In this document: positions 25,900-58,871 of the stretch, piece by piece
Numbering within the stretch: the stretch's first letter is position 1
How the letters are laid out: each line of letters begins with the position of its first letter
NCBI RefSeq assembly: GCF_030124325.1
Contig: NZ_JASKLR010000011.1
Location: 1 to 64,000, forward strand
DNA length: 64,000 nucleotides
Direction: 5' to 3'
Source of the DNA: Sinorhizobium sp. 8-89
GTDB taxonomy: Bacteria > Pseudomonadota > Alphaproteobacteria > Rhizobiales > Rhizobiaceae
The notes under the pieces: generated by a model
The model's input: the letters and a program-made list of their open reading frames with translations, nothing else
Told to the model about the DNA's origin: nothing
Databases searched by the model: none
Translations under genes and position numbers: made by a program

Positions 25900-27837
25900 A
25901 TGTGCGGTTTTGGTGGCTATTTCGGTTCTGTTCCGGATGGAAGGGTTCTTCTCGAAAAGATGACGGCCGCGATCGCCCATCGCGGGCCTGATGAAGAAGG
26001 CGTGTTTACCGCGCCGCAAGCCGGTCTCGGCCACGTCAGGTTGTCGATCGTCGGGCTCGGAGATGGCCAGCAGCCCATGTCCGACGCCACCGGCGAACTG
26101 ACGATCGCCTTCAACGGCGAAATCTTCAACTATGTCGAACTGCGCGACGAGCTTCGCGCCAAGGGCCGCCGCTTCCGCACGTCCAGCGACACGGAGGTCA
26201 TTCTCCACCTTTACGATGAAATGGGCGAGGACTGCGTCTCCCGCCTAAACGGCGACTTTGCCTTCGCCCTATGGGACAATCGCCGCCGGCGGATGATGCT
26301 GGCGCGCGACCGCATGGGGGTCCGGCCCCTGTTTTATACGACGCAGGGGGGAACGTTCTATTTCGCCTCCGAGGTCAAGGCGCTTCTTCAAGTCCCCGGC
26401 CTGTCCGCAGAGATCGACCCCATCGCCCTCGATCAGATCTTCACGCTGTGGGCGCCGATCGCGCCGCGCACGCCTTTCCGGGACATATGGGAACTGGAGC
26501 CCGCGACCCTGATGATCGCCGATGAGCGGGGCGCGGCGGCGCGTGCCTATTGGAGGCTCGAGTTTCCGGATCGGGATGCGCCGCCTCGGCATAAGGACGA
26601 AGGTCAGGCTGCCGAGGAATTGCGCGCACTCCTGACCGACGCGACGCGCATCCGCATGCGGGCCGACGTGCCGGTCGGCTCCTACCTGTCGGGCGGTCTC
26701 GATTCGTCCATCGTCTCGGCGCTCGCCGCCGGCATGGCCCCGCAGGGCCTTCGAACCTTTTCCGTGACCTTCGACAGCGCCGAGCATGACGAAAGCGCGT
26801 TTCAGAACGAAATGGCCGCCGCTCTCGGCACCGACCACAGGGCGATTGCCTGCCGTGCAGGGGATATCGCCAAGATTTTTCCGGATGTCATCCGTTTTGC
26901 CGAAAGGCCGGTGCTTCGAACGGCGCCGGCACCCTTGTACCAACTCTCCGGCCTGGTGCGCGATTCCGGCCTGAAGGTGGTGCTCACAGGGGAGGGGGCG
27001 GACGAAGTTTTCGCGGGCTACGACATCTTCAAGGAATCGCGCGTGCGCCGCTTCTGCGGCCGGCAGCCAGGTTCGCGCATGCGGCCGCACCTTTTCCGCA
27101 AGCTCTATCCCTACCTGCCGGGCCTCAAGCAGCAGTCGCCCGAATACCTGGCGGCGTTTTTCGGCGCCGGGGACGACCCGCTTGACGACCCGCTCTTTTC
27201 GCATCGTCCACGGCTCAAGGGGACGGCAGCGACGAAGATGTTCTTCTCCGGCGATTTGCGCGCCGAGCTGGCGGGTTACGCCGCCGCCAATGAACTCGTC
27301 AGCCGGTTGCCTGAAGCCTTCGGCCGCTGGCATCCGCTGCATCAGGCGCAATATCTCGAGAGCCGCTTCCTCCTGCCCGGCTACATTCTTTCGAGCCAGG
27401 GCGACCGAATGGCGATGGCCCATGGGGTAGAAGGCCGTTTCCCCTTCCTCGACCACCGTCTGGTGGAGTTCGCCGCCGGGCTGCCGCCGGAAATGAAGCT
27501 CAAGGGTCTGGTCGAGAAGCACATTTTGCGTGAAGCGACGAAGGATCTTTTGCCGCCCTCGATCGGCAAGCGGACGAAGCAGCCTTATCGCGCGCCGGAC
27601 AGCCATTCCTTCAGCGGCACGGGCGAGCTCGACTACGTTCGCACCGCGATGGGCGAAGAGGCGATTGCCACCGGCGGTCTCTTCAACGCAAAGGCCGTCG
27701 CGAAACTTTGCGAGAAGTGCCGGGCGCGCCCGGCCTCGGGCTTCCGCGACAACGCGGCTTTCGTCGGCATCCTGTCGACGCAACTGTGGCTGCAGACATT
27801 CACCGGCACCAACATCCGCGCGGCGCAAGCCGCCTGA
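25900..27837 (+). CDS. Asparagine synthetase-like glutamine amidotransferase (AsnB family)
   Basis: 645 residues. The N-terminal class II glutaminase domain starts MCGFGGYFG (Cys2 nucleophile after Met removal) with AHRGPDEEG; the C-terminal synthetase domain has the PP-loop SGGLDSS at residues 264-270 and GEGADEVFAGYD. Both active sites appear intact. As first gene of a polysaccharide cluster and next to an ACP and an AMP ligase, it more likely amidates a sugar or acyl intermediate than makes asparagine; similar enzymes occur in exosortase-associated polysaccharide clusters. Confidence 0.92.
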   Translation: MCGFGGYFGSVPDGRVLLEKMTAAIAHRGPDEEGVFTAPQAGLGHVRLSIVGLGDGQQPMSDATGELTIAFNGEIFNYVELRDELRAKGRRFRTSSDTEVILHLYDEMGEDCVSRLNGDFAFALWDNRRRRMMLARDRMGVRPLFYTTQGGTFYFASEVKALLQVPGLSAEIDPIALDQIFTLWAPIAPRTPFRDIWELEPATLMIADERGAAARAYWRLEFPDRDAPPRHKDEGQAAEELRALLTDATRIRMRADVPVGSYLSGGLDSSIVSALAAGMAPQGLRTFSVTFDSAEHDESAFQNEMAAALGTDHRAIACRAGDIAKIFPDVIRFAERPVLRTAPAPLYQLSGLVRDSGLKVVLTGEGADEVFAGYDIFKESRVRRFCGRQPGSRMRPHLFRKLYPYLPGLKQQSPEYLAAFFGAGDDPLDDPLFSHRPRLKGTAATKMFFSGDLRAELAGYAAANELVSRLPEAFGRWHPLHQAQYLESRFLLPGYILSSQGDRMAMAHGVEGRFPFLDHRLVEFAAGLPPEMKLKGLVEKHILREATKDLLPPSIGKRTKQPYRAPDSHSFSGTGELDYVRTAMGEEAIATGGLFNAKAVAKLCEKCRARPASGFRDNAAFVGILSTQLWLQTFTGTNIRAAQAA

Positions 27838-27859
27838 AACCAGACGGAAAGGACGAGAC

Positions 27860-28126
27860 ATGACAGAGACGATCAAGGACAGCATCAAGGCGTTCATCGT
27901 CGAGAATTTTCTCTTCGGCGACACGTCTTATGAACTCGCCGACACCGCATCGCTGATCGAAAACGACATCATCGATTCGACCGGGGTTCTGGAGCTCGTG
28001 GCCTTCATTGAGGACCGTTTCGGTATCGCCATGGCCGACGCCGATATCGTCCCGGCAAACCTCGATTCTTTGGCACGCATTTCCGCATTCATCGCGGCGA
28101 AGAGCGCCGTGCCGGTTTCGGCATAG
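27860..28126 (+). CDS. Acyl carrier protein
   Basis: 88 residues. The phosphopantetheine site is Ser40 in NDIIDSTGVLELVAFIEDRF, with the usual helix II following; the acidic composition fits. It is placed 22 bases after the amidotransferase gene and 28 before the AMP ligase gene, implying a dedicated carrier loaded by that ligase. A phosphopantetheinyl transferase is not encoded nearby. Confidence 0.92.
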   Translation: MTETIKDSIKAFIVENFLFGDTSYELADTASLIENDIIDSTGVLELVAFIEDRFGIAMADADIVPANLDSLARISAFIAAKSAVPVSA

Positions 28127-28154
28127 ACGGCGGCTGGTTGGGAGCGTCACGCGC

Positions 28155-29702
28155 ATGCGGTTCGAGCAATTTCTTATCAGGAACGCCGGAGCAAACGGAG
28201 GCAAAGCGGCGCTCGTCACCGAGCGTAAACGGCTGCGGTACGACGAGCTCGATGAGCTCTCGACCCGTCTCGCCGCCGCCCTTCATGCAAATGGCGTCAA
28301 GCGGAACGACCGGGTCCTTGTTTTCATGGACAATTGCTGGGAGGCGGCGGTTTCGATTTTCGCGGCCCTCAAGGCCGGCGCCACCTTCAGTCCGATTAAC
28401 GCCTCGACCAAGGCCGACAAGCTCGGCTATATCATCGGCGATTGCGATGCAGCGGCGATCCTGACCCAGGCCAAGCTGATGCCGATCGTCACGGAGGCGC
28501 GCACGCTTCACGCTGCTGCGCCGCTCTTTGTCGCCGCCACGGCGGCCGGGAATGGCCGCACACCCGAAGGAGCCGCGTCGTTCGAGGGATGCCTGGCGTC
28601 CGAACCTCTGCCGGTTCTTCATGGCGGCATCGATATCGACCTCGCTATGCTGATCTATACCTCCGGCTCGACCGGCAGGCCCAAGGGAGTGATGATGACG
28701 CATCGCAATATCGATGCGGCTTCGGAGTCGATCACCACCTATCTTCGCAACACGCCGGACGACGTCATCCTCAACGTCCTGCCGCTTGCCTTCGATTACG
28801 GCCTTTATCAGCTCCTGATGGCCATCAGGCTTGGCGCGACGCTGGTTCTCGAAAAGTCCTTCGCATTTCCGCAGGCTATCTTCGAGCGGATCCGTGCCGA
28901 GGGCGTAACCGGCTTTCCGCTGGTGCCGACCATGGCCGCGATGATCTTGCAGATGCGCGATATCGAACCCGGGTTCCTGCCCAGCCTTCGCTATATTTCC
29001 AATACCGCTGCGGCCTTGCCGCCGGCGCATATCGCCAGGCTCCGGGAGCTCTTTCCCAGCGCGCGGCTTTATTCCATGTACGGCCTGACGGAATGCAAGC
29101 GCTGCACCTATCTGCCGCCTGAAGAGTTGGATCGCCGACCCGGATCTGTCGGCATCGCCATTCCCTACCCCGAAGCCTTCGTCGTCGATGACGAGGGAAA
29201 CCGTGTGCCGCCGGGCGTTCCGGGTGAACTGGTGATCCGCGGTCCGCATGTGATGCAAGGATACTGGCGCAACGACGCAGCGACCGAGCGCATGCTGCGC
29301 TCCGGCCCGAACCCCTGGGAAAAGGTGCTTCATACAGGTGATCTCTTCCGCGCGGATGAGGCGGGTTTCCTCTATTTCGTCGGCCGAAAGGACGACATCA
29401 TCAAGACGCGCGGCGAAAAGGTCGCGCCGAAGGAAGTCGAAATGGTGCTGCATGCCCATCCGGGAATCGCGGAAGCCGTCGTCATCGGCGTCCCCGATCC
29501 GGTGCTTGGCGCTGCGATCGGCGCGCTCGTCGTTCTTTCAGACCCGGCACTGAGCGAGAAAGACATCATCCGTCACTGCACTCGCCACCTTGAGGATTTC
29601 ATGGTGCCGAAGATCGTCGAATTCCGCGCCGAACTCCCGAAGACCGACACAGGCAAGGTCAGCCGCAGACTGGCGGCGGAAACATTGGAGCTTGCAGAAT
29701 GA
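28155..29702 (+). CDS. AMP-dependent acyl/aryl ligase (ANL superfamily)
   Basis: 515 residues. The P-loop-like motif YTSGSTGRPKGV lies near 170, A5 motif YSMYGLTECKR, A7 HTGDLFRADEAGF, A8 YFVGRKDDIIKTRGEKVAP and A10 PKTDTGKVSRR, so the adenylation machinery is complete. It should activate a carboxylate and load it on the neighbouring ACP. The substrate is unknown. Its stop overlaps the NAD-synthetase-like start by four bases. It resembles ligases in exosortase-type polysaccharide clusters. Confidence 0.9.
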   Translation: MRFEQFLIRNAGANGGKAALVTERKRLRYDELDELSTRLAAALHANGVKRNDRVLVFMDNCWEAAVSIFAALKAGATFSPINASTKADKLGYIIGDCDAAAILTQAKLMPIVTEARTLHAAAPLFVAATAAGNGRTPEGAASFEGCLASEPLPVLHGGIDIDLAMLIYTSGSTGRPKGVMMTHRNIDAASESITTYLRNTPDDVILNVLPLAFDYGLYQLLMAIRLGATLVLEKSFAFPQAIFERIRAEGVTGFPLVPTMAAMILQMRDIEPGFLPSLRYISNTAAALPPAHIARLRELFPSARLYSMYGLTECKRCTYLPPEELDRRPGSVGIAIPYPEAFVVDDEGNRVPPGVPGELVIRGPHVMQGYWRNDAATERMLRSGPNPWEKVLHTGDLFRADEAGFLYFVGRKDDIIKTRGEKVAPKEVEMVLHAHPGIAEAVVIGVPDPVLGAAIGALVVLSDPALSEKDIIRHCTRHLEDFMVPKIVEFRAELPKTDTGKVSRRLAAETLELAE

Positions 29703-30709
29703 ACATCCGCCCGGATCAGGATAAATTTGTCTTCTCGGCCGACAGCTTGAAGATCGACGCGGCCGCAGAGACGGACCGCATCGTCGCGGGGCTGCGTGCG
29801 CAACTGCGCGGCATGCGCAAGCGCGGTCTCGTGCTCGGCCTTTCCGGCGGCATCGACTCGAGTGTCTCGGTGGCACTGGCCGTACGCGCCGTCGGTGCCA
29901 GAAACGTCTTCTGTCTGTTCATGCCGGAAAACGACTCCGATCCCGAGAGCCTTCGCCTCGGCCGGCTGGTGGCGGAAACCTTCGGCGTCGAGGCGATCGT
30001 CGAGGATATCGGACCACCACTCGCGGCGATGGGCTGCTACGAACGCCGCGACGCCTTCATTCGAGAGCTTGTTCCCGACTATGGGCCGGGCTGGGCATCG
30101 AAGATCGTGATAGCCAATGCGCTCGAAGGCGACGGCTACAACATCTCCTCGCTGGTCGTGCAGGATCCGGAGGGAAGGCAGACGAAATTGCGCATGCCGC
30201 CCTCCGTCTACCTCGGCATCGTCGCCGCGACGAACATGAAGCAGCGCACCCGCAAGCAGATCGAGTATTATCATGCCGACCGGCTGAATTTCGCCGTTCT
30301 AGGAACGCCGAACAGGCTGGAATACGACCAGGGTTTCTTCGTCAAGAACGGCGACGGAGCGGCGGACGTCAAGCCGATCGCACATCTTTACAAGTCACAA
30401 GTCTATGCGCTCGCCGCCCATCTCGGCGTCCCTGAGGAAATCCGGCGCAGGCCGCCGACGACGGATACCTATTCGCTCGAGCAGACGCAGGAGGAGTTCT
30501 ATTTCTCGCTCCCCTACGACCGCATGGACCTCTGCCTCTACGGTCTCAACAACGGCGTCAGCGCCGAGGAGGTCGCCCGCGCGGCGCAACTGACAGCGAT
30601 CCAGGTCGAACGCGTCTGGGCGGATATCGCCGCCAAGCGCAAGGCGACACGTTACCTTCACCTGAGCCCGCAGCTCGTTCACGCGGTCGAGGAAATCTGC
30701 CACGAATAG
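29699..30709 (+). CDS. NAD synthetase-like PP-loop enzyme of the polysaccharide cluster
   Basis: 336 residues, longer than ammonia-dependent NadE (about 250-275). The PP motif is LGLSGGIDSSVSVALA; GTPNRLEYDQGFFVKNGDGA and DVKPIAHLYKSQVYALAAHL follow, as in NadE. There is no nitrilase-type glutaminase domain, so ammonia would have to come free or from the AsnB-like partner. The C-terminus (EEFYFSLPYDRMDLCLY) differs from housekeeping NadE. Position inside the operon suggests an adenylation-amidation step rather than NAD synthesis. Confidence 0.85.
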   Translation: MNIRPDQDKFVFSADSLKIDAAAETDRIVAGLRAQLRGMRKRGLVLGLSGGIDSSVSVALAVRAVGARNVFCLFMPENDSDPESLRLGRLVAETFGVEAIVEDIGPPLAAMGCYERRDAFIRELVPDYGPGWASKIVIANALEGDGYNISSLVVQDPEGRQTKLRMPPSVYLGIVAATNMKQRTRKQIEYYHADRLNFAVLGTPNRLEYDQGFFVKNGDGAADVKPIAHLYKSQVYALAAHLGVPEEIRRRPPTTDTYSLEQTQEEFYFSLPYDRMDLCLYGLNNGVSAEEVARAAQLTAIQVERVWADIAAKRKATRYLHLSPQLVHAVEEICHE

Positions 30710-30739
30710 GGCCAAGTCGTGAGGCATGCGGCTGCCGCT

Positions 30740-30848
30740 TGATCTAGAGCGCCGTGCCTTCAAATGAAGGCACAAAGGACGCTCTGGCACTTGATTCTAG
30801 AGTATCTTATCCGCTTTCGATGATTCCACCCGAAAACGGGATGCTCTA
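30740..30848 (+). repeat. Rhizobial intergenic repeat remnant
   Basis: Contains CCTTCAAATGAAGG, the repeated AGAGC/GCTCT boxes and the terminal block CACCCGAAAACGGGATGCTC, a combination I recall as recurring in rhizobial intergenic regions. It lies between the convergent NAD-synthetase-like and GNAT genes; its last bases supply the GNAT stop codon. Confidence 0.5.
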
Positions 30849-31958
30849 GTCGAAGCGTCCTCCGATCAGCCGGCTCCAGTGCTCGCCCGCCAGCCCGTTC
30901 ATGAAGCCTTGCGCATTGCGGAAGGCTTCGACGAGTTCCCCGTCGCGGGAATGGATGACGGTCGAGGCGGCATGGACGAAGCCGATGCGACGGCCGAGCA
31001 TCGCTTCCAGCAGGGCTGGCTGGATTCGGCCACGCAGACCTGCGGCGCCGCGCGCGGCGGCGTGTTCGATAAGGCAGTCGATCACGGTACCGGCTTGCCC
31101 CGGCGCGGCCAGGACCTGGAGCACCCGGGCGATGCCGCCAGCGCGCCCATGGTAGAAAAACGCACCCACCGGCGTTCCGCCACGGGCGGTAACGGCGGCG
31201 AAGACGGGCTCGCCATAATCCGGCTTGTCGACGGCATCCGCCAATACACGATCGAGCTGACCCGCAGCCCAGTCGGGCCGGAGCGCGAACTGCCCCGTCA
31301 GCCGCTCGAAGAGGCCGGCGAAGGCGTGCCGATCGATGTCGGCGGCCTGCAATGTTCCGCGGATCGGGGGGCTTTCCGGCAGTCCGGACCAGCGCAGGTC
31401 ATCGCGGTCCATCCTGCTGCGATAAATTTGATCGATCGAGCGTGCCAGCGGGCTCAGCAGACGGGCCGGACGGATGCGGCTTGCAACGAGGTCGAGCGCG
31501 AAAGCCGAGGGCCGCACGACCCGCACCCAATCGAGGCTGTATTGCGGCAGGGCAATGCCGCGCAGTTTCGTCCACATTTGCGCGGAAACCTCGCTTGCGG
31601 TTTCGCTGAAGGAAAGATCCTGCGGTCCGGCGAGGAAAGCCTTGAGAAGTCTCGCGCCGGCCAGCGGGTCGCTCTCGCGCCCTTCGACCATCAGCGAACC
31701 GCAGATCGCGGCGCGCAATCGCCTGCCATTGAAGGTCATCGGCAGGACGTTCACGCCGACGAAGCCGGAAATGCGTCCTTCGCTGTTGACGTATACGAGC
31801 GGCGAGATCTCCGGGTCGCATCCGGGCGATTCCAGGTAGAGCTGGCGAAGATAGTCGATGAAGGCAGGCGACGCGGTGTCGCCGTTGCGGAATATCCTCT
31901 GGAACAGCCCGGCGACGGCCGGAATGTCGGCCGTCTCCAGAGGACGGATATCGCTCAT
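30846..31958 (-). CDS. GNAT-like acyltransferase domain protein
   Basis: 370 residues. The opening IRPLETADIPAVAGLFQRIF and later ISGFVGVNVLPMTFNGRRLR look like a GNAT fold; the C-terminal half is unassigned. It is paralogous to the protein at 34321-35469: both share the D-I-P start, an AICGSLMVEGR/LLCAFMADGR-type strand, and a C-terminal GLAGEHWSRLI / GLASESWSRLL ending. It overlaps the methyltransferase stop by four bases. The substrate is unknown; modification of a sugar or acyl group is a guess from context. Confidence 0.75.
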   Translation of the reverse strand: MSDIRPLETADIPAVAGLFQRIFRNGDTASPAFIDYLRQLYLESPGCDPEISPLVYVNSEGRISGFVGVNVLPMTFNGRRLRAAICGSLMVEGRESDPLAGARLLKAFLAGPQDLSFSETASEVSAQMWTKLRGIALPQYSLDWVRVVRPSAFALDLVASRIRPARLLSPLARSIDQIYRSRMDRDDLRWSGLPESPPIRGTLQAADIDRHAFAGLFERLTGQFALRPDWAAGQLDRVLADAVDKPDYGEPVFAAVTARGGTPVGAFFYHGRAGGIARVLQVLAAPGQAGTVIDCLIEHAAARGAAGLRGRIQPALLEAMLGRRIGFVHAASTVIHSRDGELVEAFRNAQGFMNGLAGEHWSRLIGGRFD

Positions 31959-32692: not shown

Positions 32693-32711
32693 GAACGCTC
32701 CTTCGATTGCT

Positions 32712-32814: not shown

Positions 32815-33008
32815 ATGGAAAATCAGATCGTCGCGACACTATCGCATTCAGGTAAACGGAAGCTGAAATGCAATTGAAGCGAGTATGTTAACCGCCCAAT
32901 CATTTCTGCTTGATAGTGTTCGCGGCGGTCGATGCCGGCGACCGCGCGGACCACGCGTCCGCCCGAATGCCGCGCACAACGTCAGGTAGTTGTCAAAGGC
33001 AGATCGTA

Positions 33009-34331
33009 ATGGCTTCGGAATGCGCAACGGAACCGGGCAGGTACAAGCCATTTCTGCCGATGCTGCTGTCCTATATCGCATCGGGCGGCAGTCTCGTCAT
33101 CGGGTCCGCTGCGCAGCTTCTGACCTTCGCCATTCTCGCTCGCTGGCTCGGCGTTCATGAATTCAGCGTCTTCGTGGCGATTACCGCGGTCGCCAACATT
33201 GCCGTTCATTTGTGCGGGCTCGGTGCCATGGAGTGCCTCGTGCGCCGGGTCGCGCGCGACCGCACTATGTATCCGCAAATGCTTGGCCACAACGTCATCC
33301 TGACGGCGGCAAGCGGCACGGCGCTGGTTCTGATCGGCGCCGTGGTCTTGCCGTTCTTCCTTACGCTTTCCGCCGACCCGCTAATGAATTTCGCGGCGAT
33401 CACGCTGATGCTCGTGACCAACGTGGTGCTGGTTCGGATCATCGTTCTGGTGGAGCAGATCTTTCTTGCCCACTCCGATTTCGCTTCGGCGAACATGGTC
33501 GTGGTTGGGTTCGCGGTTGCACGCACGGCCGCGGCCGCGCTCGCCTGTCTTGCCTTCGGTGTCGCCACGGTCGCGTCCTGGGCTGTCTGGCAGTTCATAT
33601 GCCACGTTCTGGTGGCTTTGGCCTGCATGTGGGCCATCAGAGGGTTGGGCAAGCCGCGCTATTGCATCGTTCGGGAGGAAATGCCGCAAGGCCTCTATTT
33701 CAGCATTCCGTTTATCCTGCGCGCGGTACGCCAGAACGCTGACCTGCTCGTCTTGAGTCTCGTTGCGACGGCCGAGATAGTTTCGAGCTACAGCGTTGCA
33801 CGCCGGATACTGGAGAGCAGCTACCTTTCCGTCGAGGCGCTCCATCGCCTCATCTATCCCGGTTCAGCCAGGATTTCCGCGGCTGGGCTGCACCATGCGC
33901 TGGAGCGGGTGCGAAAGGTACTCCTCGCCGCCACCGGCATAAGCATCGCGGCGGCGGTGGCGGTTTTCGTGTTGGCGCCAATCCTGCCCTATCTGTTCGG
34001 CAAGGATTACATTTCTCTCGTCGCTTTCGTCAGGACTCTTTGCTGGGTCGTCGTGCCGATGGCGATTTGGTCGGTTGCGGTGGAAGCACTCGGCGCCTCA
34101 GGGTACCACGCTGGCCGCGCAACAGTCATGGGACTTGGCAGTGTGGCAGGGGCCGCACTGGCCGCCTGGGCGAGCTGGTATGCACCGCCTCTCGGCACAT
34201 TCGTTTCGTTCTATGTGATCGAGATTGCGATGGTTGTTTCCGCATGGAGCGTGTTCCTGCATTTCGTGCGCCGTGACAGGGAGCAGGCCGGTCCGCCGGA
34301 ACTTCCGACAAGGATGGTGCATGAAGGCTGA
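33009..34331 (+). CDS. Wzx-type polysaccharide flippase (oligosaccharide translocase family)
   Basis: 440 residues with about twelve hydrophobic helices from residue 16 on, an MATE/MOP-like pattern with basic loops (RRVARDRTMYPQ; ARRILESSYLS). It would move lipid-linked repeat units across the inner membrane. The start at 33009 (MASECATEPGRY) is chosen because it precedes the first helix and has AAAGGCAG upstream. The stop overlaps the following GNAT gene by 11 bases. Confidence 0.88.
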   Translation: MASECATEPGRYKPFLPMLLSYIASGGSLVIGSAAQLLTFAILARWLGVHEFSVFVAITAVANIAVHLCGLGAMECLVRRVARDRTMYPQMLGHNVILTAASGTALVLIGAVVLPFFLTLSADPLMNFAAITLMLVTNVVLVRIIVLVEQIFLAHSDFASANMVVVGFAVARTAAAALACLAFGVATVASWAVWQFICHVLVALACMWAIRGLGKPRYCIVREEMPQGLYFSIPFILRAVRQNADLLVLSLVATAEIVSSYSVARRILESSYLSVEALHRLIYPGSARISAAGLHHALERVRKVLLAATGISIAAAVAVFVLAPILPYLFGKDYISLVAFVRTLCWVVVPMAIWSVAVEALGASGYHAGRATVMGLGSVAGAALAAWASWYAPPLGTFVSFYVIEIAMVVSAWSVFLHFVRRDREQAGPPELPTRMVHEG

Positions 34332-37263: not shown

Positions 37264-38595
37264 ATGAGCAGTGCCACCTACAGCGAGCACCGTTCCACGG
37301 AAACCCTGATGGCACCTGCCGGGACCGTGCTGTTTATGGCGATCTTCCTGTTCCTATGGATTTCCATCGATCCGTTTGTCGATTTGACGGGCGAGGCGAT
37401 CCTGGACCCTTCCGCCGGCAACTCCAATCGACTGAACCAGATTATATCGTTGGCTCTCTTCGCCGGCACGCTTTGCTACGGCGTGCTTCATCCGATGCGG
37501 AATACGATCTTGCAGCCGCGCGTCCTTTTGGCTGTCCTGTTCACCTGGTTTCTTCTCGTCTCGGTCATTTCCGCCCATCCGACCCTTGGCATCAAGGGCG
37601 TCGTTCTCAGCGTGATGATGGCGGTGAATGCGAGTATCTATCTGCTGATGCCGGCCTCGGAACGGCATTTCGCCAAGATGCTCGGGATAGGCACACTCGT
37701 CATGCTGGCGGTTGCCTATTACGGCATCCTCTTCAAGCCGCTGCTTGCCATCCACCAGGCGTCAGAACTGCGCGAACCGATGAACGCCGGATTGTGGCGG
37801 GGCCATTTTCCGCACAAGAACAGCGCCGCCGCCGCGATGGTGATCGGCGCCTTCTTCGGTCTCTTCGTCATGAACACCTGGTCGCGCCTCGCCGGTATCG
37901 CGATCGTTGTGCTGTCCTTCACCTTTCTCGTCAACACCGGCGGGAAGACGTCGACGGCAATGCTTCCTGCGATACTGATCCTCGCGTGGATTTTCGAGAA
38001 AGTGCGGTTCCTGCGCATCCCGATTGCCGTCGGCGGTGTCGGGCTCTTCAATCTCTTCGCCGTCGGGTCGGCTGTCTTCGTTCCGCTCGGCGAGTTCATT
38101 AGCCAGCTTGGCATCGATGCCACCTTCACAAACCGGGCCGACATCTGGCGTTTCGCCTTCTCGGCGTTGGCGGAGCGTCCGTTGCTTGGATATGGCTTCA
38201 GGGCGTTCTGGCAGACGGAAGAATTGGTTTACAGCGGCGGCTCGGTGGAGACGTGGGCCGTCGCCGCTGCCAACGGGCACAATTCCTATCTGGACATCGC
38301 ATTGATGACCGGATTTCCCGGATTGATCCTGACCGTGATCTGGGTCGTTCTACTGCCGCTACGCGACATCTCCCGGATTGCTCCAGACCGCGAGCACGCC
38401 CACCTCACGCGGCTATTCATCCGCATCTGGCTTTACACAATCTTCCATGCTGGCCTCGAGACACTGTTCTTCGAAGGCGGAAACCTTATCTGGTTCACGT
38501 TCATGCTCGCGCTCTACGGTCTGCATCTCCAGTCCTCCGCGGTGTTGACGATCGATCGGCAGCCGTTGAAAAGGAGCACCGTCGCGCATGCCTGA
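37264..38595 (+). CDS. Wzy/O-antigen ligase-like polysaccharide polymerase
   Basis: 443 residues, about ten to eleven membrane helices, with a large periplasmic loop of the Wzy_C/WaaL type holding GLWRGHFPHKNSAAA and later TNRADIWRFAF, LLGYGFRAFW and NGHNSYLDIALMTG. H-x(n)-NSYLDI is typical of O-antigen ligase/polymerase proteins. Its place between chain-length and deacetylase genes fits the polymerase role. It overlaps the deacetylase gene by eight bases. Confidence 0.88.
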   Translation: MSSATYSEHRSTETLMAPAGTVLFMAIFLFLWISIDPFVDLTGEAILDPSAGNSNRLNQIISLALFAGTLCYGVLHPMRNTILQPRVLLAVLFTWFLLVSVISAHPTLGIKGVVLSVMMAVNASIYLLMPASERHFAKMLGIGTLVMLAVAYYGILFKPLLAIHQASELREPMNAGLWRGHFPHKNSAAAAMVIGAFFGLFVMNTWSRLAGIAIVVLSFTFLVNTGGKTSTAMLPAILILAWIFEKVRFLRIPIAVGGVGLFNLFAVGSAVFVPLGEFISQLGIDATFTNRADIWRFAFSALAERPLLGYGFRAFWQTEELVYSGGSVETWAVAAANGHNSYLDIALMTGFPGLILTVIWVVLLPLRDISRIAPDREHAHLTRLFIRIWLYTIFHAGLETLFFEGGNLIWFTFMLALYGLHLQSSAVLTIDRQPLKRSTVAHA

Positions 38596-39349
38596 GATCG
38601 CACGCAAAATCGACGGGCTGGTCGATCGCTTGGCAAACCGGTTGATCTGGCGCTTTGCCCGGCAACGGCGCAGATTGGAAACGGAAACGCCGCTCGTCTC
38701 CTTCACCTTCGACGACGTTCCCGACAGCGCGCTCGATCATGGTGCGGCCATTCTCGAACGGTACGGCGCGCGCGGCACTTTCTACATCGCCGGCGGGCTT
38801 GCCGGTCAGGTGGAGCCGGACCGAACGCTTATTTCGCCGGCTGGCTGCGGAGAGCTATTCGTTCGAGGGCACGAAATCGGCTGCCACACCTTTTCGCATC
38901 GCAGGATACGCGACATGTCCGTGGCCGCTCTCGGCCGGGATCTCGACCGCAACGCGGACTATCTCCAAAATGTCGGCGTCACGCCGGCCGCGGTAAACTT
39001 CGCCTTTCCGTACAATGCCGCCTGGCCTTGGACGCGTGCGGAGCTTCGCAGGCGTTATTGCACGTGCCGCGGCGGCGGCGAGGCCATCAATCGTGGACCG
39101 GTCGATCCGTTGATGCTCAAGGCGGTCGAGATCCGCCAGCCCGAGCAGCATGCACGCGCGCTGACCCGGTGGATAGACGAGGTTGTCGAACGCCCCGGCT
39201 GGCTCGTCTTTTTCACCCATGACATAGCGCCACGTCCGACGCCCTACGGCTGCAGCCCCGAAACCTTCGATCATCTGGTCCGCTATGCGGTCGACAAGGG
39301 ATGCCAAGTGCTTCCGGTCGACCGGGTGCTGAACCGGATCAACTGGTGA
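38588..39349 (+). CDS. Polysaccharide deacetylase (NodB-homology domain)
   Basis: 253 residues. NodB motifs: VSFTFDDVPDSA (catalytic and metal Asp near 41-42), GCHTFSHRRI (metal His pair) and FAFPYN. The metal site is intact. No signal peptide is seen, so action on a cytoplasmic lipid-linked or free precursor is likely, unlike most export-linked deacetylases. It is coupled to the polymerase gene and followed after seven bases by a glycosyltransferase gene. Confidence 0.9.
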   Translation: MPEIARKIDGLVDRLANRLIWRFARQRRRLETETPLVSFTFDDVPDSALDHGAAILERYGARGTFYIAGGLAGQVEPDRTLISPAGCGELFVRGHEIGCHTFSHRRIRDMSVAALGRDLDRNADYLQNVGVTPAAVNFAFPYNAAWPWTRAELRRRYCTCRGGGEAINRGPVDPLMLKAVEIRQPEQHARALTRWIDEVVERPGWLVFFTHDIAPRPTPYGCSPETFDHLVRYAVDKGCQVLPVDRVLNRINW

Positions 39350-39356
39350 GGCGCGT

Positions 39357-40601
39357 ATGAAGGCGTTCGAAAGCACCGGAAAGAGGCTGCTGGCGATCAA
39401 CAATTACTTCTATCGTCGCGGTGGCGCGGAGACGGTCTTTTTCGACCACATGGCGATGTTCGGAGAGATCGGCTGGGACGTCGTGCCGTTCGCGATGCGG
39501 CACGACAGCAACGAAGCGTCGCCGTGGTCGGAATATTTCGTATCCGAGATCGAATACGGCCGGCAAACGGGCTTGCTGCGGAAAGTCTCCCAGGCGGCGA
39601 GCGTCATCTATTCCGTCGAGGCTCAACGCAATATCGCCCGGCTGATCGAGCGCGTGCGTCCGTCTATCGCCCACGCACACAATGTCTATCACCACCTGTC
39701 GCCGGCAATCTTCTCGACGCTCAAATCCGCGGGCATTCCGGTGGTTATGACCGTTCACGACCTCAAGCTCGCCTGTCCGTCCTACAAGATGCTCCGTGAC
39801 GGAAAAGTATGCGAGGATTGCAGCGGCGGGCGAATCCACAACGTCCTGCGCCACCGTTGCGTCAAGGACTCCGCATCGCTTAGCGCCGTCGTCCTCGCCG
39901 AAACCATGCTGCATCGGCTGCTCGGGCTCTATCGCGAAAAGGTGGACCGCCTCGTCGTGCCGAGCCGGTTTTACCTGGAAAAGCTGGTCGAATGGAACTG
40001 GCCGCGCGAAAAGATGATCCATATCCCGAACTTCGTCGATGTCGAGGACTATCGCGGCGATTGGCAGGAGGGTGGTTACTTCGTTTTTGCCGGCCGACTC
40101 GCTCCGGAAAAGGGGCTTGCGACGCTGATCCGGGCCGTCGCCCGCTCGAAACAACGGCTGATCGTCGCCGGTACCGGGCCGGAAGAAGCAGCCCTGAGGC
40201 AGCTTGCGGACGAACTTAATGCGAATGTGACCTTCGCCGGCTATCTTTCAGGCCAGGATCTGCATCGGCTTATCGGCGAGTCTCTCGCGCTCGTGCTCCC
40301 CTCCGAATGGTACGAGAACGCTCCGGTCAGCATTCTGGAGACCTACGCGCTGCGGCGTCCGGTCATCGGCGCGGCGATCGGCGGTATTCCTGAGATGGTG
40401 AAGGAAGGCGAAACCGGCCTGATGGCGACGTCCGGCGAGGTCGAAGACCTCGCGAGAGCCTTGAACGCCATGGCTGCTCTTACACCTGCCGTTCGCGCGC
40501 AAATGGGTGCCGCGGGCCGGACCTGGATCGCCAGCGAGTTCTCCGCGGCGGCCTATCGCGCCAGGACGCTCGACCTCTACGCAACATTCGGGGCTGCCTG
40601 A
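39357..40601 (+). CDS. Glycosyltransferase family 4
   Basis: 414 residues, GT-B fold. N-terminal INNYFYRRGGAETVFFDHM, middle SIAHAHNVYHHLSPAI, and C-terminal donor-binding FAGRLAPEKGL with the EX7E motif ENAPVSILE. A small Cys cluster (CPSYKMLRDGKVCEDC) occurs around residue 140-155, as in several GT4 enzymes of polysaccharide clusters. It is retaining; sugar and acceptor are unknown. Confidence 0.9.
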   Translation: MKAFESTGKRLLAINNYFYRRGGAETVFFDHMAMFGEIGWDVVPFAMRHDSNEASPWSEYFVSEIEYGRQTGLLRKVSQAASVIYSVEAQRNIARLIERVRPSIAHAHNVYHHLSPAIFSTLKSAGIPVVMTVHDLKLACPSYKMLRDGKVCEDCSGGRIHNVLRHRCVKDSASLSAVVLAETMLHRLLGLYREKVDRLVVPSRFYLEKLVEWNWPREKMIHIPNFVDVEDYRGDWQEGGYFVFAGRLAPEKGLATLIRAVARSKQRLIVAGTGPEEAALRQLADELNANVTFAGYLSGQDLHRLIGESLALVLPSEWYENAPVSILETYALRRPVIGAAIGGIPEMVKEGETGLMATSGEVEDLARALNAMAALTPAVRAQMGAAGRTWIASEFSAAAYRARTLDLYATFGAA

Positions 40602-40782
40602 AACACCTGAAACAGGTTCCGCGATATCAGAAAGCGGCTGGCGCGTTTGGAAATCCGTCCGCCCGCGTCGCGCAGACGTTTGATTTTCGAGCATTTCCTT
40701 CGGAGTTTACCGAATTTCTTACCGCGATAGTAAGTGCTCCGGATGCATAAGCCATCGAGGGAAATCCCTGGGGCTGACAACC

Positions 40783-42090
40783 ATGAGCAGAAATTCCGAA
40801 GTCTCGCGAAATCGGATGACGCCGCCGAGCGTCCTGCCGCGCCCGCAGGCCGTGGCCGCCGACCAAGTTTCGCCGAGTTCGGTGGGTGATTTGAGGGCGT
40901 CCGGTAACGGCCTGCTTGGCGGCGCCGGTGTACCGGAAGAAATCTCCACCGTCCGGCCTGCGAGCAGCGGACGCGCGCGGCGGCGCGTGATGATGCTCGG
41001 CTTGCGCGGCATCCCGAACGTCCAGGGCGGCGTCGAGAAGCATGTCGAAATGCTCGCGGGCAAGCTCGTGGAGCATGGTTGGGATGCGGAGGTCATCGGA
41101 CGCCGCCATTATCTTCAGAGGCCGTCGTCGTTTTCCTGGAACGGGATTTGGGTGTTTCCGCTCTGGGCCCCGCGACGGATGGCGTTGGAAGCCTTCGTTC
41201 ATACCTTCGTCGGTGTCTGTTTCGCGGCTTTGCGTCGGCCCGACATCCTGCATATTCACGCCATTGGACCAGCGCTCCTGGTACCCCTTGCCAGGCTTCT
41301 CGGCATGAAGGTGGTCGTCACACACCACGGCTACGACTACGATCGGCAGAAATGGGGCGCCTTCGCCAGACTCATGCTGCGAGTCGGGGAGTTCATGGGC
41401 ATGCGCCTCTCTCACGGCCGCATCGCGATCTCGAAGGAAATCGTTCAAGCCATGAGCGAGAGGCACAAGGCAGCGGTAACCTTCGTTCCAAACGGGGTTG
41501 CTGTTTCACCCTTCCGCGGCGCCACCGGCATTCTCGAGGAGTTCGGACTGCAGCCGCGACGATATATTCTCCTTGCAGCGCGGCTTGTCCCGGAGAAGCG
41601 CCAGACGGACCTGATCCAGGCGTTCGCGAAGCTGGGCAAGGCCGAATACAAACTCGTGCTCGCCGGTGACGCGGAATTCGAGACACCCTACGTTCAGCAG
41701 GTGAAGGCGATGGCCGCGAACGTCAGGGGCGTCGTTTTGGCGGGCTTCCAGACCGGGGACCGGCTGGCGGAACTCTTCGCCAACGCGGCCCTCTTCGTGC
41801 TGCCTTCCAGTCATGAGGGCATGCCGATCGCACTCCTGGAGGCAATCGCTCATGGCCTGCCGGTGCTAGCAAGCGACATCGTCGCCAACCGCGAGCTGGA
41901 ACGTCCTTCCGACGACTATTTTCCGCTGGGGGATATAGACGCCCTGGCAGCGGCGATCGGCAGCAAGATTGCCAATCCTCCGAGCGAGGAGCAGGTGCTT
42001 TCCCAGGTAAGGCACGCGGAGCTCACCTATAGCTGGGCGGGCGTGGCTGCAAAGACGCTGGCGGTCTATGGGGCGCTGCTGGTGAAATGA
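40783..42090 (+). CDS. Glycosyltransferase family 4
   Basis: 435 residues from the ATG at 40783. The first 65 are low-complexity and the GT-B domain begins at MLGLRGIPNVQGGVEKHVEM, so a later start near 40990 is possible, although no ribosome site is seen there. Donor domain: LAARLVPEKRQTDLI and the EX7E motif EGMPIALLE. The sequence style (RGIPNVQGGVEKH) is of rhamnosyl/mannosyl-type GT4s. The 180-base gap before it holds no gene. Confidence 0.88.
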   Translation: MSRNSEVSRNRMTPPSVLPRPQAVAADQVSPSSVGDLRASGNGLLGGAGVPEEISTVRPASSGRARRRVMMLGLRGIPNVQGGVEKHVEMLAGKLVEHGWDAEVIGRRHYLQRPSSFSWNGIWVFPLWAPRRMALEAFVHTFVGVCFAALRRPDILHIHAIGPALLVPLARLLGMKVVVTHHGYDYDRQKWGAFARLMLRVGEFMGMRLSHGRIAISKEIVQAMSERHKAAVTFVPNGVAVSPFRGATGILEEFGLQPRRYILLAARLVPEKRQTDLIQAFAKLGKAEYKLVLAGDAEFETPYVQQVKAMAANVRGVVLAGFQTGDRLAELFANAALFVLPSSHEGMPIALLEAIAHGLPVLASDIVANRELERPSDDYFPLGDIDALAAAIGSKIANPPSEEQVLSQVRHAELTYSWAGVAAKTLAVYGALLVK

Positions 42091-42204
42091 GCCCCGTCCT
42101 CTTTCGGAAGCGGGTTTCGCCGTAACGCTTTGAAGGAATGCATATTTGTCCTCGGGTCCGCTCCGATCTGAGGAAAAGCAGGTCACGACGATTTGGACCA
42201 GGTC

Positions 42205-42594
42205 ATGAATTTCAAACGCATCGCATCGCTACTCGCATGGCTCCTGTTCGCCGTGATCGCCTATTCGACGCTGTCTCCGATCGGCATGCGCCCGCATGTC
42301 GGCACATGGGTGCATGTCGAAAGGTTCGGCGCCTTCGGGCTGCTCGGCCTTCTGTTCGCTGGCGCCTATCCGGGACGTTTGCCGCTCGTCGTTGCAATCG
42401 TGCTCGCGACGGCGGTCGGATTCGAATTGCTGCAAATGCTGTCCATGGACCGCCATGCGCGCTGGGAAGATTTTGCGGTCAAGCTTGCCGGCGGCGGGTG
42501 CGGCGTTGCGGCCGGATCGTTCATGGCGCGGCGCTGGCCGCGCTTCGCGCACCGGCCGCCGCAAATAAACCAAAACTCAAATTTTCCGGGCTAG
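42205..42594 (+). CDS. VanZ-like small membrane protein
   Basis: 129 residues with three to four hydrophobic helices. VHVERFGAFGLLGLLFAGAY, GFELLQMLSMDRHARWEDF and AVKLAGGGCGVAAG correspond to the VanZ-like pattern with H...E and D residues. The start ATG at 42205 is preferred over a TTG 12 bases upstream. VanZ-like proteins often accompany polysaccharide clusters, including exosortase ones; their function there is unknown. Confidence 0.75.
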   Translation: MNFKRIASLLAWLLFAVIAYSTLSPIGMRPHVGTWVHVERFGAFGLLGLLFAGAYPGRLPLVVAIVLATAVGFELLQMLSMDRHARWEDFAVKLAGGGCGVAAGSFMARRWPRFAHRPPQINQNSNFPG

Positions 42595-42653
42595 AAACGG
42601 TGCTGTCACGCTCTTGCGCGGTCGCGAAACCCTGCCGGCATCTGGGGGCTCCT

Positions 42654-43652
42654 TTGACAATATCCGTCATCATCAAGACCTTGAATGAAGAAAAGCGGAT
42701 TGCCGCGACGATCGAAAGCGTCATTGCGGCGCTGGAAGGCAAGCAGGGCGAAATCATTATTGCCGATAGCGGATCGTCCGATCGGACCGTGGAGATCGCT
42801 TTAAAATATCCTGTCACCATAGCGCAGATCATACCGCCGGCTCTTCCGAGCTGCGGCATCGGCCCGCAACTCGGTTTTCAATATTCCCGATACGACTACA
42901 TCTGCCTGCTCGACGGCGACATGCTGCTCGATCCCGGTTTTCTCGACGCGGCGATCGGTTGTCTTGCGGACAACCCCTCCGTTGCCGGCGTCACCGGCCA
43001 CGTGGAGGAGATGCTCGTTTCGAACCTGGAATTCGCACGGCGCGTCAAACGCAACGCGCCCGAGAACAGAATCGGCCCGATCGACCGCATGAATGGAGGC
43101 GGCCTTTACCGACGCACCGCCATCGAGAACGTCGGCTATCTTTCGGACCGGAATCTTCACGGCTACGAAGAGTTCGACCTCGGTGTCCGCCTGCGAAGCG
43201 CCGGATGGGGGCTCCATCGTCTCGACCGTCGTTTCGTCCGGCATTTCGGTCACACCGTCAATTCCTACCGGCTGCTCGTCCGCCGCTGGAAGAGCAAATA
43301 CCTCTACGGCATCGGCGAATTGCTGCGCGCTTCCCTCGGCAAGCCTTATTTCATCCAAGTGCTGCGGGAATTGCCGGAATTGAAGCTGTGGGCCTTCGTC
43401 TATCTCTGGTGGACGTTGTCTCTCGGCCTGATCCTGTTCCTGCCCGACAAGAGCGTGGCGATTGCCTCGGTCTCAGCCATGCTTGCGGCCGTTGTCCTGC
43501 TGGTCAGCCTGAAGAAGGGCGGCCTTGGCATGGGCCTCTATACGGTCGTTGCCTGGTTCTTTCACGCCGCTGCGCTGCCCGTTGGATTGTTCAGGTCGCG
43601 GAAGAAGCCAGGCGCCCCCATCGAGAGCAGAATTCTCGGTAAGCCTGCATGA
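42654..43652 (+). CDS. Glycosyltransferase family 2, TTG start
   Basis: 332 residues from TTG at 42654, preceded by GGGGGCT. GT-A motifs: SVIIKTLNEEKRIAATIESV, IIIADSGSSDRTVEIA and the metal-binding CLLDGDMLL; GYEEFDLGVRLRSAGW is the ED-type catalytic segment. Two C-terminal membrane helices (LWWTLSLGLILFLP and AMLAAVVLLVSL) plus a third near the end tether it. There is no ATG near the conserved start; a GTG 54 bases upstream is the alternative. It overlaps the hydrolase gene by four bases. Confidence 0.87.
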   Translation: MTISVIIKTLNEEKRIAATIESVIAALEGKQGEIIIADSGSSDRTVEIALKYPVTIAQIIPPALPSCGIGPQLGFQYSRYDYICLLDGDMLLDPGFLDAAIGCLADNPSVAGVTGHVEEMLVSNLEFARRVKRNAPENRIGPIDRMNGGGLYRRTAIENVGYLSDRNLHGYEEFDLGVRLRSAGWGLHRLDRRFVRHFGHTVNSYRLLVRRWKSKYLYGIGELLRASLGKPYFIQVLRELPELKLWAFVYLWWTLSLGLILFLPDKSVAIASVSAMLAAVVLLVSLKKGGLGMGLYTVVAWFFHAAALPVGLFRSRKKPGAPIESRILGKPA

Positions 43653-45817
43653 GAGGCCGCTTACTGCTTTTCGCAGCAACGATATTTTTCGGCTGTCTGC
43701 CCGCCCACGCCTCCGACCAATGGCTGCCGGTCCGGGAAACCTCGCTTGAGGTTCGCGCGGGCAGCCCGCTCGACTTCTCTTCCTTCTTGCCGAACCGGCC
43801 CATCGATGCGGGCCATCGGCTGACTACCGGTCCTAAGGGTCAGTTAGCCTACGCCGAAGCACCGGAAAAGCCGGTCAGGATGCTCTGCGCCTCGCTCGCC
43901 TGGAGCCCGGCTTCCGGCGGCTTTCCGGATCACGACGGCGCGGACCGGTACGCCCGGCAACTGGCGCTGCACGGTTACAACATCGCGCGGCTGCATTTCA
44001 CCGATGCGAGCCTGATGTTCGGCCGCCAGCAGGATTTCGACTTCGATCCGGAGACGCTGGACCGCATCCAGTATCTGCTTGCCGCGCTCAAGCGCAACGG
44101 CATCCACTGGATCATCGACGGCCTGTCGTCGCCGCGCGGCGCTTACGGCGGCTATGATGATCGCTGGGACGCCAACGGAAATCTGAAGCTCCTGCTTCAT
44201 CTCGATGAGGAAGCCTTCGTCCATTGGAAAAAACTGCAGGAGAAATTCCTGGCCCAGGTCAATCCCTATACGGGGATTGCGCCGATCCACGACGATGCTC
44301 TGGCTCTGGTGATCCTCGCCAACGAGAACGGCATTGAGTTCGACGGCGTCGTGCATGATCGCCCGGGCAAGCCGCCCTATGATCCGGTGCTCGCTGCCCC
44401 CTTCAATCGTTGGCTTGCGCAGCGCTACACGTCGACGGAGATGCTCTCCAAAGCCTGGGGCGGTGTCGAGGACGACGAGCGGCTTGAAGCAGGATCGGTG
44501 AAATTGCCCGCCGATCGCTATGCCGATAGTCCCCGTATGCGCGATCTCCAAGCCTTCATCGTGGACGTCGAGCGATCATCGGCGGCACGGATGAGCAAAG
44601 CCCTGCGGGACCTCGGATATAGAGGGTTGATCAGCACCTACAACAACTGGCCGACGGTACAGACGGCGCTGAGCAGGCGCGACCTCGAGGCCGTGACCAT
44701 GAATACCTATCACGACTGGGTCGGCGGCTATTCTCCAGGCAGTGCGCTCCTGCAGACAAGCGCCATCGCCGACAGCGCCAACTATATGCGGATGATCGCG
44801 GCTGCGCGCTGGCTCGGAAAGCCCTTCGTCGTCAGCGAATACGATCACCTTTTCTGGAACCGGTATCGTTACGAGGCGGGCCTCATGATGCCGGCCTATG
44901 CGGCACTGCAGGGCTGGGATGTGCTCTGCCGGCATGGGCATGGGCCGATCGCGCTCGCCTACGGCGAGCCCTATCCCCACAAGAAGGCGATGCTTCCCTA
45001 TGCGATTGCGCTCGATCCGGTCGCCCGTGCGGGCGAGACGCTTGCAGCGCTCCTTTATAGACGGGGAGATATCGCGACCTCTGGCATCACGATTCCTTTC
45101 GCGGTTCGTGGCGAGGAAGATCTTGGCGAGGACATGCAGGCGCGCGAACCGGAGCGATTGACCGATCTGGCTCTGGTCGGCCGTATAGGGCTGAAACGCT
45201 CGGATCCGTCGCGCCTCGACACCGGCGTTGCACAACCACGGGCCCAAGCCAGCGCGGACATTCTCGCTGACCTTCGCGACATCGGCATCCTGCCCGCCGC
45301 CAATGGCGCGGACGTCGAGCGGGGGCTCTATCAGAGCGACACCGGAGAAATCGTGCTGGATCGCACGGTCGGGCAGCTGCGCGTCTCGACGCCGTCGACC
45401 GAAGCCGCGGCATTCTCCTCGCTTCGCGAGCCGGTGGACCTTGGTCTGCTCCGGATAGAGCGTGCGGACGGCAACGGTCTCGTGGCGCTCTCGGCGCTCG
45501 AGGGGCCCGGCACGCTTGCCGACGCCCGGCGTTTTCTGCTGACCTTTGCGACCGATGCCCAGAATACCGGCATGATCTTTCGCGACAGCGAGGAAAAGGT
45601 CATCGAAGACTTCGGCAGATTGCCCGTCCTGATCCGAAAAGGGGAGGTCGACCTGACGCTGTCGAGAACGGCGGTAAAATGGAAGCTCTCGCCCGTTGGT
45701 CTCGACGGCACCGTTCATTCGCCGGTTAAAAGCGGAACGGGGCCGATCTCATTCCGCCTTTCGAACGAGACTCCCAACGGGCCGACGACCTATTTTCTCC
45801 TGGAACTTGAAGGCTGA
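43649..45817 (+). CDS. Secreted clan GH-A glycoside hydrolase
   Basis: 722 residues. The signal peptide (LLLFAATIFFGCLPAHA) is followed by a TIM-barrel of the cellulase-like clan GH-A: acid/base in LANENGIEF (Glu near 226) and nucleophile in FVVSEYDHLFW (Glu near 396). The C-terminal 250 residues are beta-rich. It may trim or release the polysaccharide made by the cluster, comparable in role to ExoK or ExsH-type depolymerases, but the family is different. It is the last gene of the cluster. Confidence 0.85.
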   Translation: MRGRLLLFAATIFFGCLPAHASDQWLPVRETSLEVRAGSPLDFSSFLPNRPIDAGHRLTTGPKGQLAYAEAPEKPVRMLCASLAWSPASGGFPDHDGADRYARQLALHGYNIARLHFTDASLMFGRQQDFDFDPETLDRIQYLLAALKRNGIHWIIDGLSSPRGAYGGYDDRWDANGNLKLLLHLDEEAFVHWKKLQEKFLAQVNPYTGIAPIHDDALALVILANENGIEFDGVVHDRPGKPPYDPVLAAPFNRWLAQRYTSTEMLSKAWGGVEDDERLEAGSVKLPADRYADSPRMRDLQAFIVDVERSSAARMSKALRDLGYRGLISTYNNWPTVQTALSRRDLEAVTMNTYHDWVGGYSPGSALLQTSAIADSANYMRMIAAARWLGKPFVVSEYDHLFWNRYRYEAGLMMPAYAALQGWDVLCRHGHGPIALAYGEPYPHKKAMLPYAIALDPVARAGETLAALLYRRGDIATSGITIPFAVRGEEDLGEDMQAREPERLTDLALVGRIGLKRSDPSRLDTGVAQPRAQASADILADLRDIGILPAANGADVERGLYQSDTGEIVLDRTVGQLRVSTPSTEAAAFSSLREPVDLGLLRIERADGNGLVALSALEGPGTLADARRFLLTFATDAQNTGMIFRDSEEKVIEDFGRLPVLIRKGEVDLTLSRTAVKWKLSPVGLDGTVHSPVKSGTGPISFRLSNETPNGPTTYFLLELEG

Positions 45818-58864: not shown

Positions 58865-58871
58865 GGCGTCC

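Follow-up and report, generated by a model that had tools for sequence, protein, structure and literature searches.

What does a carrier-protein cassette do beside a polysaccharide cluster? This question is raised by a locus at positions 25900-45817 of the window (the whole 64,000-nucleotide stretch of DNA analysed here, from the beginning of contig NZ_JASKLR010000011.1, C3 in our numbering, of Sinorhizobium sp. 8-89, whose 7.06 Mb genome is 99.97% complete). A preliminary description, made from the letters of the sequence, took it for an exosortase-like polysaccharide cluster without an exosortase. Its observation was confirmed, and the locus consists of two separable modules: (i) module A, a carrier-protein cassette with asnB, an acyl carrier protein (ACP) gene, an AMP ligase gene and nadE, usually accompanied by a tandem-GNAT gene (gnatA); and (ii) module B, a Wzx/Wzy polysaccharide cluster. 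On the forward strand lie asnB-ACP-AMP ligase-nadE, followed by gnatA and a methyltransferase gene on the reverse strand and, again on the forward strand, by the genes of module B, namely wzx-gnatB-pcp-wzy-deacetylase-GT4-GT4-vanZ-GT2-GH, where pcp encodes a polysaccharide co-polymerase (PCP), GT stands for glycosyltransferase and GH for a glycoside-hydrolase-like protein (Table 1). The reading preferred here, to which we give a probability of about 0.45, is that module A builds an amidated acyl group on its carrier protein and that the GNAT proteins attach this group to an amino sugar freed of its acetyl group by the deacetylase.

Genes were identified by means of gene calls and Pfam and NCBIfam profile scans, each score being read against the cut-off of its family (in the prose, scores are given as bits obtained/cut-off). 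Confidence in the resulting gene anatomy is high. The scans bore out the genes already listed for this region in the preliminary description (AsnB, ACP, AMP ligase, GNAT, chain-length protein, deacetylase, GT4s and VanZ) and added those absent from that list: a NadE-like ligase, a PrmC-like methyltransferase, Wzx, a second GNAT, a GT2 and the GH-like protein.

Table 1. Genes of the two modules, with window coordinates and the evidence on which each assignment is based.
Feature	Position	Strand	Module	Basis
asnB-like glutamine-dependent amidotransferase, 645 aa	25900-27837	+	A	Pfam Asn_synthase + GATase_7
Acyl carrier protein, 88 aa	27860-28126	+	A	DSTGVLEL phosphopantetheine motif (DSTG); annotated ACP in relatives
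AMP-forming acyl/amino-acyl ligase, 515 aa from ATG	28155-29702	+	A	AMP-binding 312 bits
NadE-like ammonia-dependent amide ligase, 336 aa	29699-30709	+	A	NF002048/PRK00876 536 bits, above cut-off 313
gnatA, tandem-GNAT N-acyltransferase-like, 370 aa	30846-31958	-	A	Pfam Acetyltransf_9 below cut-off; predicted fold
HemK/PrmC-like methyltransferase, about 245 aa	31955-32692	-	A (accessory)	NPPY motif
Wzx-type flippase	32910-34331	+	B	Polysacc_synt 43.9 bits; 10 hydrophobic segments; true start downstream of ORF start
gnatB, GNAT paralogue of gnatA, 382 aa	34321-35469	+	B	28% identity to gnatA in alignment
Polysaccharide co-polymerase (PCP), 531 aa	35654-37249	+	B	Wzz + GNVR
Wzy/O-antigen-ligase-type polymerase	37264-38595	+	B	Wzy_C 46.5 bits
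HfsH/CE4-type polysaccharide deacetylase	38588-39349	+	B	Polysacc_deac_1 62 bits
GT4 glycosyltransferase	39357-40601	+	B	Profile scans
GT4 glycosyltransferase	40783-42090	+	B	Profile scans
VanZ-like membrane protein	about 42205-42597	+	B	27.9 bits, cut-off 30.1; VanZ family annotation at the same place in S. meliloti ml21
GT2 glycosyltransferase, start approximate	42650-43652	+	B	Glycos_transf_2 61.9 bits from residue 176 of a long ORF
Secreted-looking glycoside-hydrolase-like protein, 722 aa	43649-45817	+	B	Weak Cellulase match, E 0.012, below cut-off

A Wzx/Wzy-dependent locus is recognized by a flippase, a polymerase and a co-polymerase standing together with glycosyltransferases, and all of these are present here (Polysacc_synt; Wzy_C; Wzz plus GNVR; GT2 and two GT4). 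Module B is, in fact, an ordinary type of rhizobial surface-polysaccharide locus found genus-wide. Its PCP showed no kinase domain in the Pfam scan and missed both TIGR01005 (155/412) and TIGR03007 (64/279). The best NCBIfam family of the deacetylase was HfsH (NF050820, 168.4/400), also below the cut-off, and its score against the NodB model was low (24/240); in any case, its metal and catalytic motifs are intact, FTFDD and HxxxH being invariant in a 14-row alignment. GnatB gave no Pfam match by itself. The GH-like protein has weak PDB matches to GH5 enzymes and beta-galactosidase (E 0.05-1) and an N-E pair and a later E that are invariant in six homologues; its structural model (pLDDT 42.6) was too poor to use. 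Pfam matched neither an initiating phosphoglycosyltransferase nor an outer-membrane exporter among the scanned cluster proteins; the rest of the genome was not searched for them, and both would have to be encoded there.

Within Sinorhizobium/Ensifer, the NadE-like protein occurs, full length and with at least 89% identity, in 32 of 33 genomes (the exception, G030, is only 70% complete), and a Wzy orthologue occurs in all 33. Among the 32 genomes having both, 30 have nadE and wzy on a single contig, at a distance of 7.4-23.7 kb; in the remaining two they are far apart (G017) or on different contigs (G019). Sinorhizobium and Ensifer replicons made up the 20 best plasmid records listed. The same genes in the same order are found on pSymB of S. 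meliloti ml21, with a DHDPS-family gene that separates gnatB from pcp, and strains 2011 and 1021 have the same set by profile, the GH gene of 1021 falling outside the stretch taken. As a separate observation, minCDE adjoins the cassette both on S. meliloti pSymB (L032, 16870-18792) and on a plasmid of Rhizobium sp. ACO-34A (L037, 14113-15956), and frame clustering placed it near the cassette in L042 and L045 too.

Beyond the genus, a search of GTDB genomes with the NadE alignment returned at least 583 related stretches, the best 80 of which were analysed as cassette loci. The order and strand of asnB-ACP-ligase-nadE are kept in 77 of these 80. The exceptions are: (i) L089, with all four genes, probably mis-sorted via a long frame; (ii) L094, with only ligase-nadE, near a contig end; and (iii) L112, where the ligase was not found. 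Other genes are less constant: 69 of the 80 loci have gnatA and 36 have the methyltransferase gene, and among the module B genes pcp was found in 33, wzy in 28 and that of the deacetylase in 26. Of 22 further loci scanned, 20 also have the complete four-gene cassette; L135 is cut before the ACP gene, and L165 (genome G566) has ACP-ligase-nadE plus a GNAT with no asnB match in its 20 kb stretch, so asnB may be dispensable or located elsewhere. In L135 and L137-L139, which come from four further genomes of the order, the arrangement of module A differs: nadE stands before asnB, and a methyltransferase gene lies nearby. L167, from a fifth such genome, has this gene order too and gave no methyltransferase match. 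On an AsnB tree obtained by a quick search, L092 (titled Bacillus subtilis) and L116 (Methylococcaceae) cluster with alphaproteobacterial sequences and, hence, these records look contaminated or misbinned; they were kept in the counts of 80.

How often does this constant cassette lie beside polysaccharide genes? Module B genes of two or more kinds were found within about 10 kb in 33 of the 80 loci and in none of 20 control regions (Fisher p 1.3e-4), the controls being stretches at set positions in 20 genomes, half of which belong to the genus, and E-values being fixed to one database size. The hidden Markov models of module B were built from the window and from some of the same loci and, therefore, they favour this type of polysaccharide and undercount other loci. 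Furthermore, module A adjoins polysaccharide loci of other kinds. In Azospirillum thermophilum, a sugar transferase, an O-antigen-ligase-type Wzy, GTs and a deacetylase directly precede ACP-ligase-AsnB-NadE-GNAT; two Azospirillum loci (L038 and L039) have the order ACP-ligase-asnB-nadE, the annotated GNAT of L038 being missed by the gnatA profile. The cassette of Shinella PSBB067 adjoins a flippase, GTs and a PIG-L deacetylase. Finally, in L163 (genome G583, outside the order), asnB-ACP-ligase-nadE directly follows an XrtA-type exopolysaccharide (EPS) locus. The cut-offs of TIGR03007 (279.8/278.85) and TIGR03006 (390.6/276.2) are exceeded there by the chain-length protein and the deacetylase, respectively, and this locus also holds an XrtA-type kinase, outer-membrane protein and ATPase, all below cut-off.

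Among the cassette proteins, AsnB passes TIGR01536 (509/267), followed as second best by TIGR03108 (446/817, missed); its best PDB match is a hydroxyamidotransferase (7ylz), and the N-terminal (M/V/L)CG motif is present in 70 of 79 loci, the remaining ones perhaps being cut frames. The ACP gave no Pfam match at E<=0.01, and its DST(G/A) motif is present in all 71 loci displayed, out of 79. As for the AMP ligase, which resembles stand-alone and nonribosomal peptide synthetase (NRPS) adenylation enzymes, its closest PDB entries are NRPS adenylation domains and its best NCBIfam family is TIGR03098 (451/592, missed). An alpha-amino acid was considered as its substrate, given this NRPS-like character; yet, of the 75 cassette ligases displayed (out of 79), 57 have D at the site that pocket numbering aligns to the amino-acid-binding Asp, and 18 have N, T or G there and, due to this variation, such a substrate is not concluded. 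The NadE-like protein, which keeps a SGGIDS-type loop in 80/80 loci, resembles ammonia-dependent NAD synthetases; its match to NAD synthase is at family level, and action on deamido-NAD is only putative. A second, weaker NadE-type match, in a 591-aa frame elsewhere in the same genome (G000:C2:293870), is probably the housekeeping enzyme. The AlphaFold2 model of GnatA (pLDDT 93.2) has a tandem GNAT fold, whose best Foldseek match is an N-myristoyltransferase (5npq, E 3e-13, TM about 0.5). The accessory methyltransferase missed the PrmC equivalog TIGR03534 (179/199.1), and a PrmC above that cut-off (257 bits) is encoded elsewhere in the genome (G000:C27); its NPPY motif is present in 36/36 loci carrying the gene.

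If the preferred reading is right, the following chemistry can be proposed. The AMP ligase would load a carboxylic acid onto the ACP, and AsnB (fed by glutamine) and/or the NadE-like ligase would amidate the carboxylate of the loaded acid or of a uronic acid, with possible methylation of the amide nitrogen by the PrmC-like enzyme. Deacetylation of an N-acetylhexosamine by the module B enzyme would expose an amine, to which the GNAT proteins would transfer the acyl group from the ACP. The GTs would assemble the repeat unit, Wzx would flip it, Wzy would polymerize it together with the kinase-less PCP, and the hydrolase would trim the product, while other parts of the genome would supply the initiating transferase and the outer-membrane exporter. 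Our confidence that surface polysaccharides are served by the cassette is moderate; confidence in the exact group that it makes is low. Several observations argue for this reading: the constancy of module A in order and strand, its linkage to module B genes in 33/80 loci versus 0/20 controls, the proximity of nadE and wzy in 30 of 32 genus genomes, its position beside Azospirillum, Shinella and XrtA-type (L163) polysaccharide loci, the paralogy of gnatB in module B with gnatA in module A, the N-myristoyltransferase-like tandem GNAT fold and the intact deacetylase motifs. As to the preliminary suggestion of a rhizobial polysaccharide with a decoration made on a carrier protein, the polysaccharide locus and the cassette alongside it stand; the decoration remains conditional and, since carrier and polysaccharide genes are separable, it is only one of several readings.

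A number of observations weigh against this reading. In 47 of the 80 loci, the vicinity of the cassette holds module B genes of one kind at most. Linkage is clustered on the AsnB tree (13 changes versus a shuffled mean of 25.7, with 0 of 500 shuffles as low), so it is largely inherited and the 33 linked loci are not independent. When 50 loci without a strong adjacent wzy, L116 not among them, were picked for a Wzy profile search, which covered 49 genomes, Wzy reached at least 300 bits in 11 genomes, was weaker in 19 and was not found in 19 (E<=1e-20); three of these 11 matches are the genus's own cluster further off. Across the order, in a sample of 249 genomes including the one under study, the NadE-like protein was found in 16 (E<=1e-60), Wzy in 22 (E<=1e-75) and both in four. 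Leaving out the genome under study, the other 248 divide into 3 with both proteins, 12 in which NadE occurs alone, 18 in which Wzy does and 215 without either (p 0.12), and among the three with both only G259 has nadE and wzy close together. Genome G230 (L132; 99% complete, 9% contamination) has module B with gnatB and no cassette match at E<=1e-60. In S. meliloti ml21, about 10 kb including minCDE separate nadE from the gnatA/methyltransferase pair. Lastly, no substrate was identified for the cassette.

The main rival explanation, which we consider unlikely, though still a serious contender, is that module A makes a small molecule of its own (an acyl-amide metabolite or compatible solute resembling N-acetylglutaminylglutamine amide, NAGGN) and merely neighbours the polysaccharide cluster. 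Module A does look self-contained: in 54 loci without a strong adjacent wzy, only GNAT (43) and methyltransferase (15) genes recur beyond it, the next families appearing in eight. However, this set includes L042, L045 and L048, from Sinorhizobium/Ensifer, in which the genus cluster lies further off, as well as the Mesorhizobium loci L059-L061, which have a PCP nearby. Plasmids of Mesorhizobium WSM1271, Nitratireductor and Rhizobium ACO-34A carry the cassette without module B genes, but such an absence is compatible with a polysaccharide encoded elsewhere, and in WSM1271 a GT2 lies about 3 kb away. AsnB also matches the NAGGN amidotransferase TIGR03104, below its cut-off (380.7/570.1), and the genome-wide co-occurrence of NadE and Wzy is weak, as described above; against this stand the ties of module A to several unlike polysaccharide loci and its excess of linkage over the controls. 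Another conceivable explanation, a holdfast-like or unipolar-polysaccharide (UPP)-like adhesin locus with HfsH-type deacetylation and acyl modification, is improbable. It would account for the best family of the deacetylase, and the pairing of a GNAT with a deacetylase recalls HfsK/HfsH; but the HfsH cut-off was missed, genes for an initiating transferase or for outer-membrane export were not found in the cluster by Pfam, and the gene order seems unlike that of hfs or upp.

It could also be argued that the locus is of the XrtA/PEP-CTERM EPS kind and has lost both the exosortase and its substrates, and here the likeness noticed in the preliminary description deserves attention. XrtA clusters have in common with the locus an AsnB-like protein, an AMP ligase, an ACP, a deacetylase, a chain-length protein, GT4s and a Wzy-like protein. 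TIGR03098 is the best family of the ligase, TIGR03108 and TIGR03007 match as given above, and so do TIGR03006 (24.5/276), TIGR03097 (36/188) and TIGR03088 (73 and 74.5/409), all below cut-off. The resemblance is real, both in the parts and in one whole locus, since module A adjoins XrtA-type EPS genes in L163, with no exosortase match in its genome; but no scanned protein of the cluster reaches an XrtA equivalog cut-off and, therefore, the locus does not resemble an XrtA locus that merely lacks its exosortase. It also differs in adding the NadE-like ligase and the PrmC-like methyltransferase. The absence of an exosortase within the window was extended to the whole genome, as the preliminary description had proposed, and neither an exosortase nor a PEP-CTERM protein was found. 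PF09721 gave no exosortase in this genome nor in any of 33 genus genomes (among 14 control genomes, Methanocaldococcus, M. jannaschii, matched), and it matched in three of 24 other genomes with module A (G122, G548 and G695). PF07589 gave no PEP-CTERM tail in this genome, G122, G583 or G695, and two in G548 that adjoin its exosortases; this positive indicates that the negative is sound. In G548, the exosortases are more than 1 Mb away from module A (order asnB-ligase-ACP-nadE), which lies a few genes from a TIGR03015-type ATPase fusion (275/324.5). No remnant was found either, and such a loss seems a very unlikely origin.

A broader proposal, which is speculative and rather doubtful, can be added to the reading of module A as a decorating cassette. 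Namely, asnB-ACP-ligase-nadE-GNAT, with or without the PrmC-like methyltransferase, may be a mobile and general proteobacterial pathway whose product, an acyl group assembled on a carrier protein, capped by an amide and perhaps N-methylated, is installed on envelope polysaccharides. Rhizobial, Azospirillum, Shinella and XrtA-type loci would have acquired it separately. This would liken the cassette to Nod-factor-style acylation, but for bulk polysaccharide. In Nod-factor synthesis by NodB, NodA and NodF, an N-acetyl group is first removed, and a carrier protein then donates an acyl group. The locus studied here differs in its GNAT-fold transferase instead of NodA, its low NodB score and its additional amide-forming enzymes. 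NAGGN synthesis, in turn, is similar in its AsnB-type amidotransferase (TIGR03104) and also uses an acyltransferase; it differs in that the TIGR03104 cut-off is missed here and that the locus also has an ACP, a ligase and a NadE-like protein.

The cassette is widespread (nearly all of the best 80 of at least 583 NadE relatives carry it), occurs in the model S. meliloti, and has parts that carry housekeeping annotations, for example asparagine synthase and NAD synthase. Its product was not found in these searches, and it is joined to a rhizobial polysaccharide locus of an ordinary type. To our knowledge, the AsnB and AMP ligase of some exosortase-type EPS loci have no known product. Should the cassette indeed decorate a surface polysaccharide, a single set of S. 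meliloti mutants could reveal which group it adds, and the answer could extend to such loci.

The PCP of the S. meliloti pSymB cluster is presumably SMb21506, judging by gene order. A 2009 work by Jofre and Becker reportedly concerns, by its title, SMb21506 and succinoglycan polymer production, and ExoP paralogues are said, in a paper citing it, to control EPS I size. Two other pSymB clusters were set aside: nodP2-smb21248, at about 0.81 Mb according to two papers on Clr and PhaR, is another cluster, the present locus sitting at about 1.42-1.45 Mb; and the PPP cluster (smb21252-smb21271), named in two other papers, differs from it by its gene tags. In a Janthinobacterium paper on a PEP-CTERM floc cluster (PMC7662799), which does not deal with the present cassette, glutamine-dependent asparagine synthases are described as required for floc formation in another study, a link between AsnB-like enzymes and exosortase-type EPS. 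No published description of the cassette was found in the literature searched, which does not show that none is in print.

Regarding the surroundings of the locus, a subtilase-family gene (20352-21899) lies upstream, on the strand opposite to an adjacent pair formed by an extracytoplasmic function (ECF) sigma factor and an anti-sigma-like gene (21941-23277). Between these and asnB there is a long reverse-strand frame (23941-25407), whose C-terminal part matches DUF6065 (35 bits) and whose true start is perhaps further in. Directly after the locus comes a P-type ATPase of the Zn/Cd/Pb type (45913-48162; TIGR01525 above cut-off), in whose place S. meliloti ml21 has an RND efflux pair. Further downstream, positions 58277-63965 hold Flp/Tad pilus genes (TadE-like, prepilin peptidase, CpaB/RcpC and secretin). 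Outside this genome, a Mu-type transposase, TniB and TniQ lie just upstream of the cassette without module B genes on the Nitratireductor plasmid (L036, 11301-14676).

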